A stretch of 64,000 bases of DNA from NCBI GenBank assembly GCA_012719415.1, contig JAAYAK010000072.1, forward strand, positions 62,001 through 126,000, in the 5' to 3' direction. Origin of the DNA: Syntrophorhabdus sp. (GTDB taxonomy: Bacteria > Desulfobacterota > Syntrophorhabdia > Syntrophorhabdales > Syntrophorhabdaceae). Below, piece by piece: positions 9,086 through 60,354 of this stretch (position 1 is the first letter of the stretch; each line of letters starts with the position of its first letter). The position numbers and the translations under genes are program-made. The notes beneath the pieces were generated by a model. The model did not search any database. It had not been told where the DNA came from and saw only the letters and a list, made by a program, of their open reading frames with translations.

Positions 9086-11362
9086 ATGAAGGACGATCTC
9101 AATATCGTAGGCAAAAGGGTTGTGCGAAGCGATTCACTCGCGAAGGTGACAGGCGAGGCACGCTATACGGCCGATCTCACGTTCCCGGGCATGCTCGTGG
9201 CAAAGGTCTTGAGGAGCCCCTATCCCCACGCGAAGATCGCGGGCATCGACGTCTCGAAGGCCCTCAAGGTGCCCGGCGTCAGGGCCGCCATCAGCGGTTT
9301 CGATTCCTATGGTGTAAAATGGGGTGTTTTCCGGTATACTCAGGACCATGCCATGCTCCACACCGACAAGGTGCGGTACATCGGCGAGGATGTCGCGGCA
9401 GTGGCTGCCGTCGACGAGGAGACAGCGATGGAGGCCCTCTCCCGCATCAAGGTGGATTACGAGCCCCTTCCTGCCGTTTACGACCCCATGGAATCCATGA
9501 AGGACGGCGCGCCGCAGATCCATGAGGAGTACAAGAACAACATCAATATCCATATACATATCGATGTCGGCGAGGTTGACAGGGCCATGGAAAAGGCATA
9601 CCTCGTCCGGGAGGACACCTTCAGGGCGGCCGGCGAGGCCTATGCCATGATGGAACCCTACGCCGTCGTCGCCTCTTTCAAGAGCGGATATCTCGATCTT
9701 TACATGCCGAACGCGGGACCGCATGTCCGGGCCAAGGCGCTGTCGAACATGCTCAAGCTGCCCCTCAACAGGGTACGCATCCGCCATATCAACTCCGGCG
9801 GGGCCTTCGGAGGGCGTTCCGAGGTGGCACCCGGTGACCTTGTGGCGTCGCTTCTCGCCATCAAGTCCGGCAGACCCGTGAAGCTCGTCCTCTCCCGCGA
9901 GGAGAATGCCACGAGTTCGCGTCAGGTCCACGACATCATCGCCACCGTGAAGACGGGCATGAAGAAGGACGGCACCATCCTTGCCAAGGACTACAAGGTG
10001 ATATACGACGGCGGCGCCTACAGTTCCACGGGGCCCATCGCCACGTCCATACCTTTCTATGTCTATGAAGAATGCTACCGTTTCCCGAACGTCCGGTACA
10101 ACGGCTACAGGGTGTTCACGAACAAGGGTATCCGCGGGATGTACGGCTGCCATGGCCGGGCCTTTCTTGCGGGCAATGAGGCTCAGATGGACGTGATGGC
10201 GAAGGAGCTTGGCCTCGACCCTGTGGGTGTGCGCCTTAAGAATGGCCTCAAGCCCGGCGAGATGACGGCGACGAAGTCGAAGATCACGAGCTGCGGCCTC
10301 AAGGAGACCATAACGACCGCCTCGGAGAAGACCAATTTCAGGAAGAGATGGGCGAAACCCTCGCGGCTCAAAGGTGTGGGCATGGGATGCGTCGCCATCA
10401 TGTGCGGTTTTCCCATGGGGTTCCGGTCGGGCTCGTCCTGCTACGTCAAGATCAACGATGACGGACAGGCGACGCTCGTGACGGGGCTCGTCGATAACGG
10501 GCAGGGAAATGAATCGATGGTGATCCAGGTGGCCTCCGAGGTCCTCGGGATACCCATGAAAGACATCAACCTCGTGAACGCGGACACGGAAGTGACGAAC
10601 CTCGACCCAGGCGCCTATTCACAGGCCGCCGCCTTCGTGGGGGCCAACGCCGTGCGGGTTGCCTGCGAGAACGCCCGCGGGAAGATCGTCGCCATCGCGG
10701 CGGAAAAACTGAAAGTGAAGGTGAAAGACATCGGCCTCAAGGACGGTGCCGCCTATTCGCTGAAGAACCCCGACAAGAAGATGCCCATATCCTGGGTGGT
10801 GCGCGAGGCTTTCTTCAGAGGAGAACCAATCACGGGAACAGGCTCGTTCTTTCCAAACATCGATTTCGAGAGGGAGTGGGTGACGAGGCCCTGGGGCCAG
10901 ATGGCGGGGACCTTCTCCTTCGGGACCTCCGTCGCGGAGGTGAGTATTGACGGTGAGACGGGCAAGATCACAATGCCCCGCTTCACCTCGGCCCATGATT
11001 GCGGGCGGCCCATAAACCCGATGGCCGTCGAGGGCCAGATGGAAGGCTCCATACAACAGGCGGGGGTGGCGGCCATTACCGAAGGGAACCTGTGGGACGG
11101 GGGGCATCTGCTTAACCCCAACCTCCTCGAGTACAAGGTCCCCCTGGCGTGCGACATGCCTGATATGGACACGATCATAGTGAGCTCACGGGACCCCGCC
11201 GGACCTTTCGGCGCCAAGGAAGGGGGCCTCACGGTGCGCATGAACGCTTACAGCGCAGTGGCGTGCGCCGTCGCGAACGCCACGGGCGAGCTGTTCAGCG
11301 AACTGCCTCTGACGCCGGACAGGGTGATGAGCATGCTGGAACGAAAGAAGGGGGTGAAGTGA
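9086..11362 (+). CDS. 4-hydroxybenzoyl-CoA reductase-like molybdopterin-binding subunit (HcrA-like)
   Basis: This is the large catalytic subunit of the second molybdenum hydroxylase. It shows the hammerhead domain, GGAFGGRSEVAP near residue 237, GMYGCHGRAFLA near 352 and VDNGQGNES near 471. Its FAD partner carries the cysteine insert of 4-hydroxybenzoyl-CoA reductases, which remove the phenolic hydroxyl of 4-hydroxybenzoyl-CoA reductively. At the C-terminus the usual GAKExxEG or GAKGxGE segment reads GAKEGGLT, so the conserved catalytic Glu appears to be missing. It may act on another substrate or have altered chemistry. It overlaps the next gene by one base in TGATG. Confidence 0.85.
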   Translation: MKDDLNIVGKRVVRSDSLAKVTGEARYTADLTFPGMLVAKVLRSPYPHAKIAGIDVSKALKVPGVRAAISGFDSYGVKWGVFRYTQDHAMLHTDKVRYIGEDVAAVAAVDEETAMEALSRIKVDYEPLPAVYDPMESMKDGAPQIHEEYKNNINIHIHIDVGEVDRAMEKAYLVREDTFRAAGEAYAMMEPYAVVASFKSGYLDLYMPNAGPHVRAKALSNMLKLPLNRVRIRHINSGGAFGGRSEVAPGDLVASLLAIKSGRPVKLVLSREENATSSRQVHDIIATVKTGMKKDGTILAKDYKVIYDGGAYSSTGPIATSIPFYVYEECYRFPNVRYNGYRVFTNKGIRGMYGCHGRAFLAGNEAQMDVMAKELGLDPVGVRLKNGLKPGEMTATKSKITSCGLKETITTASEKTNFRKRWAKPSRLKGVGMGCVAIMCGFPMGFRSGSSCYVKINDDGQATLVTGLVDNGQGNESMVIQVASEVLGIPMKDINLVNADTEVTNLDPGAYSQAAAFVGANAVRVACENARGKIVAIAAEKLKVKVKDIGLKDGAAYSLKNPDKKMPISWVVREAFFRGEPITGTGSFFPNIDFEREWVTRPWGQMAGTFSFGTSVAEVSIDGETGKITMPRFTSAHDCGRPINPMAVEGQMEGSIQQAGVAAITEGNLWDGGHLLNPNLLEYKVPLACDMPDMDTIIVSSRDPAGPFGAKEGGLTVRMNAYSAVACAVANATGELFSELPLTPDRVMSMLERKKGVK

Positions 11363-12312
11363 TGATCCTGCCACAGTTTGAATACAAGAGAGCACGGAGC
11401 GTGGCCGACGCGGTTACCCTCTACAAGAAAGAGAAAGGAAAAGCGATCTATCTCGCGGGGGGAACGGACCTCATCCCCCTCGTGAAGCTGAGGCTGCAGG
11501 CGCCGAAGGCGGTCATCGACCTGAAAGGAATAGAGGACTTGAGGATCATGGCCTCCCGCGGTGGGTCCCTTGTGGTGGGCGCCAACGTTACCCTCTTCGA
11601 CCTCAAGAAGGACCCCGTGATAGCAGCGCACTTTCCCGCTCTCGTCGAGTCCCTCGATGCCACGGCCTGTGAGACACTCCAGATGCGCGGAACTCTGGGC
11701 GGCAATATTCTCCAGGGTACGCGCTGCCTTGAGTACAACCAGTCCCTTGAATGGCGGCAAGCGCGGGGCTTCTGTTTCAAGATGGGTGGAAAGCAATGCA
11801 ACGTCGTCAAAGGCGCGAAGGCGTGTTTCGCGAATTACTGCAGTGATAATGCCCCGGCGCTCATCAGCCTCGGGGCGCAGGTGAGGCTCACGGGCCCCGG
11901 CGGGGAGCGCACCGTGAAGCTGGAAAGCCTTTTTACCGGGGATGCCAGGGCACCTTTTGCCATGGAGGGGGGCGAGGTGCTGACGCACATACTTATCCCT
12001 CTCAAGAAGACAAAGGGGGCCTACGAGAAACTGCGTGTCCGCGAGTCCATGGACTACCCGCTTGTCGGCGCCGCCGTGTCCGTCATCGACGGGAAGGCAA
12101 GGATCTGTGTGGGCGGCGTGGGTGGAGCCCCCCGCCTTTATGTCCTCGGGGATATCAGGGATGCCGCCTCCGTCAGGGAGTTGGCCGAAAAGGCGTCCGC
12201 TGACGCGAAGCCGGTGGCGAACGCGACAGTCTCGCCTTCCTATCGGAAGAAGATGGTGGGTACCCTGATCAGGCGGGCCGTCAAAAGAACTCTTGCGGAG
12301 GGTAAGCGATGA
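11362..12312 (+). CDS. 4-hydroxybenzoyl-CoA reductase-like FAD subunit with 4Fe-4S insert (HcrB-like)
   Basis: This is the FAD subunit of the second hydroxylase. The FAD loops AGGTDLIPL and TLGGNILQ are present. After the second loop there is an insert with cysteines in TRCLEYNQS, GFCFKMGG, KQCNVV and KACFANYC. This pattern matches the extra 4Fe-4S cluster site of the 4-hydroxybenzoyl-CoA reductase beta subunit, which lets electrons flow inward from ferredoxin. The start ATG shares a base with the previous TGA, so translation is probably coupled. The 2Fe-2S subunit gene overlaps its end. Confidence 0.88.
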   Translation: MILPQFEYKRARSVADAVTLYKKEKGKAIYLAGGTDLIPLVKLRLQAPKAVIDLKGIEDLRIMASRGGSLVVGANVTLFDLKKDPVIAAHFPALVESLDATACETLQMRGTLGGNILQGTRCLEYNQSLEWRQARGFCFKMGGKQCNVVKGAKACFANYCSDNAPALISLGAQVRLTGPGGERTVKLESLFTGDARAPFAMEGGEVLTHILIPLKKTKGAYEKLRVRESMDYPLVGAAVSVIDGKARICVGGVGGAPRLYVLGDIRDAASVRELAEKASADAKPVANATVSPSYRKKMVGTLIRRAVKRTLAEGKR

Positions 12313-12779
12313 AGACGATGAAGGTCAGTTTCAATGTGAACAACGAGGATGTCACCCTTGACGTGAAACCCTACGAAACCCTTCTCGAAACGCTTCGCGA
12401 GCGACTGTTCCTGACCGGCGCGAAGGATGCCTGTGGTCTGGGCTCATGCGGCGCCTGCACGGTGATCGTGAACGGGATACCGCTGAGGTCGTGCCTTGTC
12501 CTGACGCCTGAGGTGGAGGGAGCCACGATCACGACAGTGGAAGGCCTAAGAGAGGAGGGGAGACTCCACCCGCTGCAGGAGACGTTCATGGAGAAGGGGG
12601 CCATCCAATGCGGCTTTTGCACCTCGGGTATGATAATGACTGCAAAGGCCCTCCTCGACAGGAACAAGAAGCCTTCGAAGAAGGAGATCGTCACGACAAT
12701 ATCCTCCAATATCTGCCGCTGCACGGGCTACAAGAAGATAGTCGAAGCAGTGGAAGAGGCGGCCAAGAGGATGGCCTAA
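12309..12779 (+). CDS. 4-hydroxybenzoyl-CoA reductase-like 2Fe-2S subunit (HcrC-like)
   Basis: This 156-residue electron-transfer subunit carries two 2Fe-2S clusters: GLGSCGACTVIVNG near residue 44 with RSCLVL, and QCGFCTSGM with NICRCTGYKK. The ATG overlaps the stop of the FAD subunit gene by four bases (ATGA), so the three subunits form one operon in the order large, FAD, 2Fe-2S. The first hydroxylase in this window has the order FAD, 2Fe-2S, large. Length and motifs are normal. A palindrome and a terminator-like hairpin follow the stop codon. Confidence 0.92.
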   Translation: MKTMKVSFNVNNEDVTLDVKPYETLLETLRERLFLTGAKDACGLGSCGACTVIVNGIPLRSCLVLTPEVEGATITTVEGLREEGRLHPLQETFMEKGAIQCGFCTSGMIMTAKALLDRNKKPSKKEIVTTISSNICRCTGYKKIVEAVEEAAKRMA

Positions 12780-12918: not shown

Positions 12919-13212
12919 ATGAAGATCAGGGTGAAAGTTGATTCGAACCTTCGGATCAAGAACGTTTTTGAGCCCCCGCTCGAACTGGAGATGAGTCAGG
13001 ACGAGAACACCCTGAAGGATGTTCTCGGCAAACTTTCCGAGCGGTATCCCTACCTGAGGTTCCTGGAGAAAGGGGAGATGGGCGATGACCTTCACCACCT
13101 GTATCTCAATGGAGAAAGCCATTTTTCATTCCCCGAGGGCCTGAACAGAAAGATCACCGAAGGCGACACGGTCCGCGTGGACGCCTACATGGACCCCCTG
13201 GCAGGGGGATAA
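12919..13212 (+). CDS. MoaD/ThiS-family sulfur carrier protein
   Basis: This 97-residue protein has the beta-grasp ubiquitin-like form of MoaD and ThiS, and it ends in DPLAGG. The terminal Gly-Gly is the site that is adenylated and thiocarboxylated by a MoeB/ThiF-type enzyme. GGAGG at 12907-12911 precedes the ATG. MoaD donates sulfur for molybdopterin synthesis, which fits a position behind two molybdenum hydroxylase sets. A ThiF/MoeB-type protein that could activate it is encoded at 21680. It could instead serve another sulfur transfer, so the MoaD role is probable but not certain. Confidence 0.8.
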   Translation: MKIRVKVDSNLRIKNVFEPPLELEMSQDENTLKDVLGKLSERYPYLRFLEKGEMGDDLHHLYLNGESHFSFPEGLNRKITEGDTVRVDAYMDPLAGG

Positions 13213-13216
13213 AAAC

Positions 13217-13322
13217 GGTTCAAGAGTTCAAGGGTTCAAAGGTTCAAGGGATTAGAGACGGTTCCGGGTTCGGGAGTTCGGGCTCTTTCTCTTGAACTTT
13301 TGAACCCTTGAACTCTTGAACT
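13217..13322. repeat. Inverted pair of period-8 arrays (GTTCAARR type) between convergent genes
   Basis: The left arm is four 8-base units at 13217-13248 (GGTTCAAG, AGTTCAAG, GGTTCAAA, GGTTCAAG). The right arm is four units at 13289-13320 (CTCTTGAA, CTTTTGAA, CCCTTGAA, CTCTTGAA). The arms are reverse complements with only C/T differences, which still allow G-U pairing. The middle at 13261-13283 also repeats with period 8 (GTTCGGGA type). The right arm runs into the stop codon of the minus-strand methyltransferase gene. The array may serve as a bidirectional terminator. Confidence 0.85.
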
Positions 13323-13914
13323 ATTTTCTCAGTAGTATCCACAACCCCCCTTCGGTAACAACATCGACTCCTTCGGTTATGCCTGCCGATTCGAGGTCTT
13401 TGCGTATCTCGTCGACGGTGGTCTCTTTCTTCCCTATGAGGTAATTGAGTTCCCGTGAGCAGTTCGCGAGGGGGCGGATGATCTCCGGGGGTGTGTACTT
13501 GCCGAAGCCCCCGCCCACGAAGGCCGTCCCGCCGGGTCTGAGGACGCGGAGGATGGCCCGGTGGTCGACCTTGAACAGTGACGGGAAGAACAAGGCCCCT
13601 CTAAAGACGAGAAGGTCGATGGTGTCGTCCTCGATACCGCAGAGGTCCGGCGACGTCCCGATAATGTCGACCGCGTCCCCCATGCTTCGTTTTTCTATCT
13701 CTCTCGTGTAAAAGGTGTAGAGACCGCGAGGGAAGGAAGCTATGCGAAAGGAACTCCCGATCCCCTGCCTGACAAGATCGTATATAACGCCGCAAAAGGG
13801 GCCGACCTCGAGTACGGACCCGTCCGCACGGCCATAGACGTCCCCGATATGACGTGCCAGATGTGGATAGACTGTCTCCCAGAGGATGTTGATCTCGCAG
13901 ATGAGGGACAACAT
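13321..13914 (-). CDS. Class I SAM-dependent methyltransferase-like protein
   Basis: This 197-residue protein looks like a small Rossmann-fold methyltransferase. A glycine-containing SAM motif is seen as VLEVGPFCGVIYDL near residues 35-48, an acidic turn GIEDDTIDLLVFRGALFF near 95, and the post-motif LRVLRPGGTAFVGGGFG near 123. The substrate is unknown. The ATG at 13914 has no clear ribosome binding site. The next in-frame stop upstream is at about 13963-13965, and only CTG is available between. The 3' end abuts the repeat array, which it shares with the convergent MoaD-like gene. Confidence 0.65.
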   Translation of the reverse strand: MLSLICEINILWETVYPHLARHIGDVYGRADGSVLEVGPFCGVIYDLVRQGIGSSFRIASFPRGLYTFYTREIEKRSMGDAVDIIGTSPDLCGIEDDTIDLLVFRGALFFPSLFKVDHRAILRVLRPGGTAFVGGGFGKYTPPEIIRPLANCSRELNYLIGKKETTVDEIRKDLESAGITEGVDVVTEGGLWILLRK

Positions 13915-34490: not shown

Positions 34491-34493
34491 AGA

Positions 34494-34683
34494 CCGTTAG
34501 AACCGTTAGAACCGTTGGAACCGTTAGAACCGTTGGAACCGTTAGAACCGTTAAAGCCGTTAAAGGTTATGGCAGATTTGGTTCCTATATCCCTGATGGT
34601 CTTCCGTCTACATCAGGGATCGTCCTTCTTTCGATCAAACGGCTCAAACCGTTCTAACGGTTCTAACGGCTTTAACGGCTCCT
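34494..34683. repeat. Inverted pair of period-9 arrays (GTTRGAACC type) with internal hairpin
   Basis: The left arm has eight 9-base units at 34496-34567, mostly GTTAGAACC and GTTGGAACC, and starts three bases after the CoA-transferase stop codon. The right arm at 34639-34682 has about five units of ACGGTTCTA or ACGGCTTTA form. Between them ATCCCTGAT at 34589-34597 and ATCAGGGAT at 34612-34620 form a perfect nine-base stem. The whole block can fold as nested hairpins. It separates two co-directional units. Confidence 0.85.
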
Positions 34684-43525: not shown

Positions 43526-43712
43526 CGAAAAGCCCGAAAAGACCGTTCAAGAGTTCAAAAGTTCAAGGGTTCAAAGGTAAGACCCTTGAGACAGGGAACC
43601 TGCACCGTGTCACGTGCAGGCTCCCTGTCTCAAGACAATTCGCACAACGGTCGAAGGCATCCGGTGTTTTTTTCTTTTTACTCTTGAACTCTTGAACCCT
43701 TGAACCTTCTTT
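43514..43712. repeat. Nested hairpins with period-8 inverted arrays between fhs and a convergent gene
   Basis: GGTCTTTTC at 43514-43522 pairs with GAAAAGACC at 43536-43544 around the fhs stop codon. Four GTTCAARR units follow at 43545-43576, and complementary CTCTTGAA/CCCTTGAA units lie at 43681-43704. Inside, 21 bases at 43585-43605 pair with 43614-43634 with one mismatch. The right arm ends seven bases before the stop of the minus-strand gene at 43711. Confidence 0.85.
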
Positions 43713-55504: not shown

Positions 55505-57175
55505 ATGAAAAACAGGTATCCGATAGCGACACTGCCGTTACTGGCCGTATGTCTCGCGGCGCTGGCCATTCTTCTTTCCGTCAGCGGCATTGCGGTCTCC
55601 GGGGAAAGGGTCTTCAGGAACGTCATCGTACTTGTGGGGGACGGAATGGGTTCTACCCATACAACCCTGGCGAGATGGTACAAGGGCGCCCCTCTCTCGC
55701 TCGACGCGATGTATGTGGGAGGGATGCGGACCTACAGTGCCGACTCCCTGATAACCGGCTCCGCGCCTGCGGCGACGGCCCTGGCGTGCGGTTTCAAGTC
55801 CATGGGGAGATCCGTGGGCATAATGCCATGCGGCGCCGCCATCGTGCCGGGGGTTTTCGATCCCGGAGAGTCCCGGTGCAAGCCGATAGCGTCCGTGCTG
55901 GAGGGGGCGAAATTGAGCGGCAGGTCCGTGGGTCTCGTGGCCACCTCCAACATCCAGCACGCGACTCCCGCCGCCTTCTCCTCGCACTGGCCCGACAGGG
56001 CGGATTACGACGAGATCGCAAAACAACAGGTTCATCAGGACATCGACGTCGTCCTGGGAGGCGGGAGGCGATACCTGCTTCCCGCGGGCAAGGGAGGTAC
56101 GCGAAAGGGTGACGAGGACCTCATCGGCGTCCTCCGGTCAAAGGGCTACCGTCTCGTAGCGAACAGGGAGGAGATGCTGGGAGCCGTATCACCGAAGCTC
56201 TGGGGCCTGTTTGCCGATGACGCGCTGGCGTACGATCTTGACAGAAAGAGCCTGTCGCCGGGCGAACCAGGCCTGTCGGAGATGACGGCCAAGGCGATCG
56301 AGGTCCTGTCGAAGAACCCGAAGGGCTTTTTTCTCTTCGTGGAGGGAAGCAAGATCGACTGGGCCTCGCACGCGAACGACCCTGTTGGGGTGATAAGCGA
56401 TGTCCTTGCCTTCGATGAGGCCGTTGGGATCGCCCTCGATCTTGCGCGCAAGGATGGCGGTACCATGGTGATCGCGTTTTCGGACCATGGAAATGGCGGC
56501 ATGTCGATAGGGAACCGGGTGACGGACAAAACGTACTCCCGGCTCCGGCATGAACAGGTTGTCGGCCCTCTCAGGAAGGCGTCTCTCACCGGTGAAGGTA
56601 TCGAGAAGGTGTTGAAGGGTGACAGGTCGGAGGACAACGTGAAGAGGGTGATATCGGAATATCTCGGGATAGACGACCTGACACCGGAGGAGATGGCGGT
56701 CGTCCGGTCCGCGAAGCCCGGAAGGATGAATGGAGCAACAGGCCCTGTCGTGAGCGCGCGAAGCGGTGTGGGCTGGACGACCCAGGGGCATACGGGCGAA
56801 GACCTCTTCTTCTATTATTATGGTATCGACAGACCTCTGCGGATGACAGAGAACTCTGACATAGCCCATATCACCGCAAAGGCGATGGGATTCGCCCTCG
56901 CCGATGTGGACAGACGCCTTTTCATCCCCGCCGACGAGGCTTTCAATGGAGTCGGAACATCGGTGACCCTGGACCGCAGGGACTCCCGCAACATGGTCCT
57001 CATCGTCGAATCGGCGGGCAAGAGGGCGGAGCTGCCCCTGAGCAAGAACATCATGAAGATAAAGGGAAAGACGGAAACCACCCGCACACTGGAAGGCATC
57101 ACCGTCCTCGCCCCCCAAACGGGCAAAGTCTACATCCCCCGGCAGGCGGTGGACATCTTTAAGAATGTTCAATAG
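55505..57175 (+). CDS. Alkaline phosphatase (PhoA superfamily), exported
   Basis: This 556-residue enzyme hydrolyses phosphate esters outside the cytosol. A signal peptide covers about residues 1-33. Metal motifs are visible: VLVGDGMG near residue 44, FVEGSKIDWASHANDP near 280, AFSDHGNGG near 322 and GVGWTTQGHTGED near 420. The nucleophile region reads ITGSAPAATALACG, so the Asp that usually precedes the Ser is Gly. The last codons GTT CAA TAG form the first unit of a period-8 array, so the repeat encodes the C-terminus. Confidence 0.87.
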   Translation: MKNRYPIATLPLLAVCLAALAILLSVSGIAVSGERVFRNVIVLVGDGMGSTHTTLARWYKGAPLSLDAMYVGGMRTYSADSLITGSAPAATALACGFKSMGRSVGIMPCGAAIVPGVFDPGESRCKPIASVLEGAKLSGRSVGLVATSNIQHATPAAFSSHWPDRADYDEIAKQQVHQDIDVVLGGGRRYLLPAGKGGTRKGDEDLIGVLRSKGYRLVANREEMLGAVSPKLWGLFADDALAYDLDRKSLSPGEPGLSEMTAKAIEVLSKNPKGFFLFVEGSKIDWASHANDPVGVISDVLAFDEAVGIALDLARKDGGTMVIAFSDHGNGGMSIGNRVTDKTYSRLRHEQVVGPLRKASLTGEGIEKVLKGDRSEDNVKRVISEYLGIDDLTPEEMAVVRSAKPGRMNGATGPVVSARSGVGWTTQGHTGEDLFFYYYGIDRPLRMTENSDIAHITAKAMGFALADVDRRLFIPADEAFNGVGTSVTLDRRDSRNMVLIVESAGKRAELPLSKNIMKIKGKTETTRTLEGITVLAPQTGKVYIPRQAVDIFKNVQ

Positions 57176-57319
57176 TTCAAGAGTTCAAAAGTTCAAGAGT
57201 AAAAGACAAAAAGGGCACCGGCGCCTTCGGCAGGTGTACGAATTCCCTTGGCAGCCGACCCCCTTCGCGGTCTTTCCCTTGAACCCTTGAACCCTTGAAC
57301 CCTTGAACCCTTGAACTGT
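57167..57319. repeat. Inverted pair of period-8 arrays between phoA-like and iclR genes
   Basis: The left arm has four units at 57167-57198 (GTTCAATA, GTTCAAGA, GTTCAAAA, GTTCAAGA) and starts within the coding sequence of the phosphatase. The right arm has five identical CCCTTGAA units at 57276-57315, ending six bases before the iclR stop at 57322. The middle is unrelated GC-rich sequence. The arms are complementary. Confidence 0.85.
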
Positions 57320-58269: not shown

Positions 58270-60240
58270 ATGATGTGTCTGAAAACTATGCCGCCAGAAT
58301 ACAGAATAAGATTTCTGCCGATGGAGCGCACCATCCCGGCAGAAGAAGGAGAGGACTTACTCGAGATCGCCATGAAGGCGGGGGTGCATATCAATGCGTC
58401 CTGCGGAGGAAGGGGAGTCTGCGGAAAGTGCAGGGTACGGATGACAGAGGGCACCCTCAACTCATCCACCCATCCTTCCATCAGTGAGGAGGACTACGCC
58501 GCGGGGATGCGTCTTGCCTGCGTTTCCACCGTCAGCAGCGATGCCGTGATCGAGATCCCGCTGGAATCGCAGGTGGACAGAAGCGTCCTGAGAAGATCGA
58601 CCGTGATGAGCGACGTGGACGCGGGAGGGATCGACGAGGTGCTCCTCGGCGAATACGGCCGGGAGCCGCTGGTGGAAAGGTTCAATCTCGATATCCATCG
58701 TCCCGACGCGCAGGACAATGTTTCAGACGCGGCGAGGATAGCACGGGCATTGGCGTCAGAGCCGGGATGCGGGGAATCCGTCATGCTGCCCTTGAGGGTG
58801 ATGCGGGGCCTCGGTGCAAGGCTCAGGGACGCGGGCTGGAGTGTCACCGTCGATGTGGTCATGAGCGGCCGGAAAGAGATCACATCCATCACGAAGGTTG
58901 ATGCCGGGGCGTCCCATTGCGCCATTGCCGTCGACATCGGGACGACCACCGTTGCCGCCCAGCTCCTCTCCTGTGACCGGGAGGACGGGGAGGGCATCAT
59001 CCTCGCGTCCTCTTCGGACTACAACAGGCAGATCAGTTTCGGAGAGGACGTCATCAGCAGGATCATGTACGCGGGAAAACTGAGCGGGCTCAAGAAGCTT
59101 CAGGAGGTCGTCGTTTCCACGGTGAACCTCCTCATCGGTGAGCTCCTGGAAGAGACGGGTGTTGACAGGGCGGACATAAGCCACGTCGTCGTGGCCGGGA
59201 ACACGACGATGATGCACCTTTTTTACGGGATAGAGCCGAAATACATCATGCTTGCCCCCTACACCCCGCTTGCGACGGCCTTCCCACCGATCGACTGCGG
59301 GGAGGCCGGTCTCGAGACCGCGCCCCATACGCGTCTGTTTGCCATTCCGGGTGTTTCATCCTACGTGGGGGGAGACATCGTGTCCGGGGTGGCGCTTTCG
59401 GGCATGACGGAAAGGGACGGCGTATCACTTTTCATGGATATCGGGACCAATGGCGAGCTAGTGCTCGGGAACGGGCAATGGCTCCTGTGCGCGTCCTGTT
59501 CCGCCGGTCCTGCTTTTGAGGGCGGAGGCATCGAGTTCGGCACGCGGGCGGCCCCGGGTGCCATCGAAAAGGTGCGCATCAACCCTGCCACCCTGGAGCC
59601 GATGATCCTCACCATAGGCAGGAAAAAGCCGCTCGGCATCTGCGGTTCCGGGCTCATCGACATCGTGGCGGAGCTTCTTCTCGCGGGTGTCATCGACCGC
59701 AACGGGAAGTTTTCGGGCGGGCTAAAGACGAAAAGGGTACGGGACGGCTCGAACGGCCGGGAGTATGTCCTGTGTTTCGCCTCGGAAACGAATATCGAGC
59801 GGGACATCGTCATTACCGAGATAGACCTCGACAACATCATGCGGACGAAGGCGGCGGTGTACGCGGGTTGCTCGGTGCTCCTCGAGAATGGAGGCCTTGC
59901 ATTTGGCGATCTCGATATGGTTATTATTGCGGGAGGCTTCGGTCACTCCATAGACGTCGAAAAGGCGATCGTCATGGGTCTTTTACCCGAACTGCCGGCA
60001 GAGCGTTTCCGGTTCATGGGGAACGCGTCGCTGGGAGGCGCCAGGATAGCGGCGGTCTCCCGAAGGTTTTTCGATAAGGCGGGTGAGGTGGCGCGGTCGA
60101 TGACAAACATCGAGTTGTCGAATAGTACGCAATTCATGGACGAATTCATGGCGGCGATGTTCCTCCCCCACACGGACGGCAGGGCCTTTCCGGAGACGAT
60201 GAAGGCCCTGGAGAAAGAACAGGTCATAGGTCATAGGTAA
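58270..60240 (+). CDS. RACo-type reductive activator of corrinoid protein (ferredoxin-ASKHA, DUF4445)
   Basis: This protein reactivates the corrinoid iron-sulfur protein by ATP-driven reduction of cob(II)amide. An N-terminal 2Fe-2S domain has NASCGGRGVCGKC near residue 40 and LACVSTV near 80. The C-terminal actin-like ATPase region carries AVDIGTTTVAAQLL near 220, AGNTTMMHLFYG near 310, DIGTNGELVLGNG near 390 and IAGGFGHSIDVEKA near 555. Three nearby ATG codons could start it; 58270 is used. It opens the operon with cooC, folD, acsD and CODH. Its last five codons are encoded by a period-7 repeat. Confidence 0.88.
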   Translation: MMCLKTMPPEYRIRFLPMERTIPAEEGEDLLEIAMKAGVHINASCGGRGVCGKCRVRMTEGTLNSSTHPSISEEDYAAGMRLACVSTVSSDAVIEIPLESQVDRSVLRRSTVMSDVDAGGIDEVLLGEYGREPLVERFNLDIHRPDAQDNVSDAARIARALASEPGCGESVMLPLRVMRGLGARLRDAGWSVTVDVVMSGRKEITSITKVDAGASHCAIAVDIGTTTVAAQLLSCDREDGEGIILASSSDYNRQISFGEDVISRIMYAGKLSGLKKLQEVVVSTVNLLIGELLEETGVDRADISHVVVAGNTTMMHLFYGIEPKYIMLAPYTPLATAFPPIDCGEAGLETAPHTRLFAIPGVSSYVGGDIVSGVALSGMTERDGVSLFMDIGTNGELVLGNGQWLLCASCSAGPAFEGGGIEFGTRAAPGAIEKVRINPATLEPMILTIGRKKPLGICGSGLIDIVAELLLAGVIDRNGKFSGGLKTKRVRDGSNGREYVLCFASETNIERDIVITEIDLDNIMRTKAAVYAGCSVLLENGGLAFGDLDMVIIAGGFGHSIDVEKAIVMGLLPELPAERFRFMGNASLGGARIAAVSRRFFDKAGEVARSMTNIELSNSTQFMDEFMAAMFLPHTDGRAFPETMKALEKEQVIGHR

Positions 60241-60354
60241 TAGGTAATAGGTTATGAGAAGAGAGACGAAAATGGATCGTGGATCATGGGTCGCATGTTA
60301 TGGAATAGATGAAAAAAGGTCTTTCCCATTACCCATCACCCATCACCCATCACC
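60222..60354. repeat. Period-7 repeat tract inside the operon, overlapping the RACo stop codon
   Basis: Five units at 60222-60256 (GGTCATA, GGTCATA, GGTAATA, GGTAATA, GGTTATG) contain the RACo stop codon. A middle set at 60273-60307 repeats as TGGATCG, TGGATCA, TGGGTCG, CATGTTA, TGGAATA. A final set at 60325-60354 is CCCATTA followed by three CCCATCA and CC. The first and last sets are partly complementary. The tract ends ten bases before the cooC ribosome binding site. Confidence 0.8.

Follow-up and report, generated by a model that had tools for sequence, protein, structure and literature searches.

Two converging genes in a stretch of Syntrophorhabdus DNA (the window, 64 kb in full) are separated by a long inverted repeat, each arm of which consists of tandem copies of a short word. 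What is such a structure doing between two stop codons, and is it kept there for the sake of an RNA fold? A sequence-only reading counted four 8-base units in each arm and suggested a maintained fold, possibly a bidirectional terminator. The following features are concerned (positions in the window):

12919–13212, plus strand: MoaD/ThiS-like small protein gene (97-aa ORF ending in LAGG; TAA at 13210–13212)
13211–13216, unstranded: outer A-tract flank (aaaaac), pairing with the opposite T-tract
13217–13250, plus strand: left arm, four 8-nt units GTTCAARR
13251–13288, unstranded: loop in which GTTC recurs loosely, with a small inner hairpin (13263–13285)
13289–13322, minus strand: right arm, four opposite-strand units of the same 8-mer as in the left arm
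13323–13329, unstranded: outer T-tract flank (attttct), within the 3' end of the opposite gene
13321–13914, minus strand: methyltransferase-like gene (197-aa ORF; TAG at 13323–13321)

The gene to the left of the hairpin is putatively assigned to the MoaD/ThiS-like family from its C-terminal motif and the adjacent molybdenum hydroxylase-like genes, and it is kept in relatives. Beside it, positions 9086–12779 of the window hold what looks, by sequence appearance, like a molybdenum-hydroxylase set (large, FAD and 2Fe-2S subunits). For the gene on the opposite strand, a glycine-rich motif near the N-terminus suggests a methyltransferase-like function; matches to this gene were found in 35 of 60 relatives.

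On recount, the arm coordinates and the four units per arm hold: the left arm reads GTTCAAGA GTTCAAGG GTTCAAAG GTTCAAGG at 13218–13249, and the right arm (13289–13322, as reverse complement) GTTCAAGA GTTCAAGG GTTCAAAA GTTCAAGA. The arms differ at 3 of 34 positions (13217, 13241 and 13249), and all three differences are of the C/T kind, as had been claimed, with G in the left and T in the right arm each time; they give G·U pairs in plus-strand RNA and A·C mismatches in minus-strand RNA. The placement between convergent genes is equally correct, the stops TAA and TAG facing each other across a spacer of 108 bp that is filled by the arms. Because the spacer sits between these two stops, the right arm overlaps the opposite one by two bases. 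The hairpin thus lies directly 3' of the stop codons of both genes; furthermore, the last codon of the opposite gene is encoded by the T-run flanking the hairpin, and four to five T are present within a few bases of the stem on either strand. The middle segment, for which a period of 8 had also been proposed, does contain repeats, but their period is not clean: GTTC occurs at 13261, 13268 and 13276, i.e., with spacings of 7 and 8.

Plus-strand RNA of this site is predicted to fold with -82.9 kcal/mol (z = -7.2, equalled by 0 of 200 shuffles), and minus-strand RNA with -72.4 kcal/mol (z = -6.45). Arms of 34 nt with no more than 3 mismatches and a loop of 20–60 nt begin at seven positions in the window, whereas 20 simulated first-order Markov windows yielded no match by the same criteria. 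The hairpin matched no known Rfam RNA family: the search of the window returned two tRNAs only, and the microRNA-like matches at the hairpin were weak, none of them reaching the gathering score. A simple terminator scan at the site detected only small inner hairpins and gave the outer stem no score.

The focal hairpin has company. Using Tandem Repeats Finder, six inverted tandem-array hairpins with units of 7, 8 and 9 nt were found in the window, i.e., the focal one and five more:

34493–34680, unstranded: second element, 9-nt unit CCGTTAGAA, between co-directional genes
43545–43706, unstranded: third element, 8-nt unit GTTCAARR, between convergent genes, with a long inner hairpin in the loop
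48675–48843, unstranded: fourth element, 9-nt unit CCGTTAGAA, between convergent genes
57167–57316, unstranded: fifth element, 8-nt unit GTTCAARR, between convergent genes, with a loop of a dispersed family
60221–60354, unstranded: sixth element, 7-nt unit RGGTNAT

In the genome, a pattern of three GTTCAARR units has 195 matches (with at most 2 mismatches) versus 0 for the reversed pattern. A census was made of 511 kb of the source genome (G000) and 511 kb of a relative (G005), with genes called by a simple model and repeats by a tandem-array finder; at a stricter setting, the finder reported 0–2 arrays per Markov-simulated contig compared with 30 in the real contig. Several census contigs were picked for 8-mer hits, so that the densities are biased and those of the 8-mer family are upper-side estimates. 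Complementary array pairs were found in 59 spacers, with periods of 9 nt (n = 21), 7 nt (n = 19) and 8 nt (n = 19); both arms always share one period, which is partly imposed by the pairing criterion. The stems measure 34–40 bp and the loops 12–327 nt, and the arms contain on average 4.07 and 4.09 units, i.e., the four units of the focal hairpin are the norm. Neighbouring 8-mer arrays were arranged plus-minus in 17 cases and minus-plus in none, and where a spacer contained two strong arrays, these were complementary in 45 of 49 cases and not complementary in the other 4. The unit words include GTTCAARR, CCGTTAGAA, GCTTGAACC/GCTTGAATC, RGGTNAT and GTTTTAAG, and further GTYTCAG, GTTCCGG, ACCTATAGG, GCTTGAAYN and GTTTTAR. 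As similar inverted array pairs (e.g., GTGGTTAA/TTAACCAC octamers) are present in other Desulfobacterota contigs (L138 and L134/L135), the class is not confined to Syntrophorhabdus. Some contigs of the source genome end within pure arrays, either (CCCTTGAA)n or (TTCAAGGG)n, in which 10 to 14 units are seen (G000:C117:1–116, C122:1–108, C172:1–86, C173:1–86); the assembly seems to break at such arrays, whose true length is probably greater and variable.

The number of units per array ranges freely, from 2 to 14 or more. This freedom, together with the freshly expanded look of the pure (CCCTTGAA)n arrays, could be explained if the repeats were a functionless by-product of replication slippage at existing terminator hairpins, where tandem duplications of 7–9 nt would lengthen each arm. 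Such periods would also fit the heptanucleotide excess discussed in the accessible text of PMC4679880. However, slippage can give neither one word at dozens of unlinked loci nor one word in both arms in opposite orientation, and it does not give homologous loops (see below). We attach very little credence to this explanation, and slippage alone was rejected since word and loop recur at unlinked loci.

The position of the elements is more telling. Outer edges lie at a median of 5 bp from a facing stop codon, with 62 of 75 such edges within -12 to +14 bp, and at about 90 bp from a facing start codon. Convergent spacers are enriched (24 of 59 elements vs 83 of 532 spacers, OR 4.8, p = 6e-7); divergent spacers are neither enriched nor significantly depleted (8 of 59 elements, OR 0.63, p = 0.29). 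In 29 of 59 elements (49%, compared with 16% of intergenic 12-mers), the 12 nt next to the left arm include an A-run of at least 3, and a T-run of at least 3 stands beside the right arm in 33 of 59 (56%, background 15–16%), a threefold excess of flanking A and T runs over other intergenic sequence. In co-directional elements, a bias of the T-tract towards the sense strand was absent (11 sense vs 16 antisense of 27).

On balance, we favour the view that the focal hairpin is one copy of a genome-wide set of gene-end hairpin cassettes, which are replaced as a whole and probably act as bidirectional terminators. Each cassette consists of an A-tract, about four units of a 7-, 8- or 9-nt word, a loop, about four opposite-strand units of that word and a T-tract, and is usually set directly after a stop codon. 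RNA of either strand could then form a long stem with a U-tract behind it, which would end or protect the transcripts of both converging genes through bidirectional intrinsic termination, possibly with additional RNase III processing. Of the earlier suggestion of a bidirectional terminator, the structural part is supported by the convergent enrichment, the abutment to stop codons, the A and T tracts and the joint change of the arms described below; termination itself is suggested by position, flanks and the reoccupation of the same sites. The chief doubts concern the stem and loop lengths, which are outside the textbook range, the lacking sense-strand bias and the occurrence between divergent genes, where no coding transcript needs a terminator.

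One divergent-gene element (L091:866–989, corresponding to G000:C72:40866–40989) keeps its place in four species (orthologues in G005, G008 and G011), its words being ACCTATAGG in two of them and a 7-mer in the other two. As it lies between presumed promoters, it may not terminate a coding gene.

Is the fold maintained base by base? The sequence-only reading took the G·U-compatible differences between the focal arms as strong evidence that it is. If base-by-base pairing in RNA were selected, the differences in co-directional elements should be G·U on the transcribed strand. No such bias was present among the transition differences of these elements (16 G·U vs 30 A·C on the sense strand), and those of convergent elements split 19:31. 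Furthermore, arms of the 8-mer family had no advantage in complementarity with their own partner (0.751) over arms from other loci (0.778; p = 0.91), and in two small families the own-arm advantage was weak (p = 0.02–0.03, uncorrected). The argument is therefore not supported, and compensatory changes were dropped as proof of a maintained fold: G·U-compatible differences between complementary arms are, alone, no proof of selection at the RNA level. What a pair preserves is the word and not the single base, which is what one would expect of arms that arrive together.

In relatives, the spacer orthologous to the focal one has 9-mer arms in G005 (CGCTTGAAT), G002 (CGCTTGARC) and G008 (CCGTTTGAA) and 7-mer arms in G011 (GGTAATG), and in G003 it is a 3-bp spacer without arrays. 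Among 95 orthologous spacers of G000 and G005, 17 are occupied in both genomes and 7 in only one of them, and the other 71 are empty in both (p = 2e-12). The unit is kept at 5 of the 17 shared sites and changed at the other 12, three of which differ by two bases of nine. Where a swap has occurred, the loop changes along with the arms, and the flanks, e.g., taaagaaagaag, are retained. The mix of words differs from species to species: CCGTTRGAA has 79 matches in G000, 9 in G005 and 0 in seven of twelve genomes, GCTTGARYN has 303 in G005, 297 in G002 and 113 in G000, GTTCAARR has 168 in G000, 116 in G005 and 0 in seven members of the genus, and RGGTNAT is present in all twelve genomes. The sequence-only reading had proposed orthologues as the place to look for compensatory changes; the arms do usually change together, but probably as whole words and not by base-by-base compensation. 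Changes of one arm next to intact genes, which were expected to speak against a maintained fold, occur in part: G005 has only the left array at one orthologous site, L116 combines unrelated words, and the 4 two-array spacers without complementarity belong here as well.

In L116, which is from a farther relative, the spacer 3' of the MoaD-like gene has TAGCTCA units in its left array, and its right array is built of the unrelated word ACGAWWT. In two spacers of the source genome, L219:931–1059 (G000:C245) and L220:190–391 (G000:C290), an 8-nt array faces a related array of 7-nt units (GTTCAAGR versus GTTCCAG or GTTCAAG), which makes continuous pairing impossible; these mixed-period spacers are possible intermediates of word exchange.

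We infer that cassettes spread and replace each other as a whole, either by copying between loci or by recombination through shared arrays; the arms would then stay complementary because they arrive together, not through base-by-base compensation. A distinctly less likely scenario is concerted evolution of terminator arms, in which a copying process (an enzyme or recombination) would write about four copies of a genome-specific 7–9 nt word into both arms, sometimes rewriting many loci, while the site and the shape are kept.

The loops also bear on the spread of the elements. Those of 8-mer elements are dispersed homologues across loci; one 75-nt loop, counted in either orientation, has 15 matches in G000, 18 in G005, 4 in G001 and 2 in G010. 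Other loops contain second hairpins or other repeats. For example, the loop of a 9-mer element at G005:C60:89468 (L187) holds an extra palindrome of the CTGGATTCCGGCCTTCGCCGGAATGACG type and a CAGGCTGTTGACA/TCAACAGCCTG pair, giving shell-like nested hairpins. At G000:C32:11787–12028 (L173) and in its orthologue in G005:C60, the left side has three successive modules of an A-tract plus GTTTTAAG before the loop, which look as if cassettes had been inserted inside one another.

Homologous loops at many loci, internal sequence included, are also what one would expect of selfish REP- or MITE-like non-autonomous repeats that are mobilised by an enzyme and tolerated at gene 3' ends, where they do the least harm. 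The enzyme would then bind to the tandem units at either end of an element, and any effect on termination would be incidental. The fixed polarity of the arms, the wholesale replacement of orthologous sites and the absence of fine-scale selection on the fold agree with this explanation, as do insertion sequences at a fixed distance from similar paired sites in Geobacter metallireducens, according to the accessible text of PMC2700814. On the other hand, the same sites are strongly reoccupied, with cassettes of unrelated sequence, and the elements have A and T tracts and lie close against stop codons, all of which suggests a need for a hairpin at these positions. The several unrelated words, in three periods, would moreover require either one enzyme each or a single, very tolerant enzyme. 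Empty and occupied orthologous sites both exist, with boundaries blurred by divergence, and no target-site duplication is apparent at the elements by eye; Y1_Tnp, the only transposase family searched, has two gene copies in the genome. As neither a target-site duplication nor a dedicated transposase was identified, the case for mobility rests on the homology of the loops. A composite transposon, with a gene between two arrays, was also considered and rejected: the intervening genes look ordinary, and each element abuts the stop of its own gene. The selfish origin is the main rival to the terminator cassettes and, as a replacement for them, somewhat unlikely; the two may, however, hold together.

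REP/BIME and MITE elements are dispersed, palindromic, intergenic and non-coding. They differ from the Syntrophorhabdus elements in having a single conserved palindrome instead of arms of tandem short words, and in Syntrophorhabdus the word changes at a conserved site. Neither a link to RAYT nor, by eye, a target-site duplication was found for the Syntrophorhabdus elements. Bidirectional intrinsic terminators, in turn, resemble the focal element in being hairpins between convergent stops, flanked by an A-tract and, at the opposite end, by a T-tract. The class differs from textbook intrinsic terminators by its repeat-built stem of 34–40 bp and its long loop, often with a second hairpin, and a simple terminator model leaves it unscored.

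Similar paired repeats are described for two other bacterial groups. In Geobacter metallireducens, the accessible text of Aklujkar et al. (2009, PMC2700814) describes Gmet_I classes 1–3 as paired opposite-strand sites whose distance from each other varies; a site holds four tandem octanucleotides in class 1, three repeats in class 2 and five tandem heptanucleotides in class 3. Their words (GTTGCTYN, TCTCCGTS and MTYCTGA) were read there as sites of an IHF/HU-type regulator; they are present in tens of copies per genome and were not found in G. sulfurreducens. The likeness to Syntrophorhabdus lies in the opposite-strand array pairs and the many copies, both organisms being deltaproteobacteria in the older classification. 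The words, however, are others, and that text neither reads them as gene-end hairpins nor describes word exchange at orthologous sites.

By analogy, the Syntrophorhabdus arrays could be paired binding sites of an architectural or regulatory protein of the IHF/HU type, with inward arrays forming a loop or boundary at gene ends. Inward pairs at variable distance with about four units each, words common across the genome and the matching description for G. metallireducens (PMC2700814, accessible text) suit this idea; elements also occur between divergent genes, and complementarity to the own partner arm would not be required. But a sequence-specific protein would not tolerate the replacement of its word, within the genus, by an unrelated one of another period. 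Complementarity would be unnecessary as well, and yet most double arrays are complementary (45/49), although this result would equally follow if both arms simply used the same word. As the A and T flanks are left unexplained in addition, we judge this explanation very unlikely.

The second case is the GGGAATC heptamer of Xanthomonas (Rehm et al. 2015, PMC4692102), for which the accessible text reports that four units are clearly preferred, that each genome has 70–75 convergent inverted pairs, and that the repeats are strongly biased towards stop codons and under-represented between divergent genes. RNA-seq indicated there that transcripts start or stop at quadruplex-forming copies more often than at controls. 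Each Xanthomonas genome has one G-rich word, read as a G-quadruplex, and 83% of the repeats keep their gene context between two species, going by the same text. In contrast, Syntrophorhabdus has many words of period 7, 8 and 9, most shared sites change their word, and its 8- and 9-mers are as a rule devoid of runs of three G. According to the accessible parts of PMC4679880 and PMC4692102, the TAACTGA repeats of Beggiatoaceae are arranged directly, except for one inverted case, and mostly precede start codons, and among the cyanobacterial heptamers those of Nostoc form only a few inverted pairs; these, too, are tandem, intergenic, genome-wide words like those of Syntrophorhabdus.

With 59 pairs in about 1 Mb, about 4.1 units per arm and a polarity of 17:0, the Syntrophorhabdus elements are of the same kind as the paired repeats of Geobacter and Xanthomonas. 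Their unit words differ from all published Geobacter and Xanthomonas words compared, and six unit strings searched literally in the open literature gave no match. New in Syntrophorhabdus are the many words and three periods per genome and their exchange at conserved sites, for which the literature searched (mostly open-access papers, seen in part) contained no description.

Inverted pairs of about four repeats of 7–8 nt have thus received separate accounts, as regulator sites in Geobacter and as G-quadruplexes in Xanthomonas. A Syntrophorhabdus genome, by contrast, contains many words, in three periods, and most are exchanged between species at conserved sites. These two findings make explanations based on a single word unlikely and favour those based on the hairpin shape and on cassette turnover. 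Orthologous sites with different words between the same flanking genes offer the test case.
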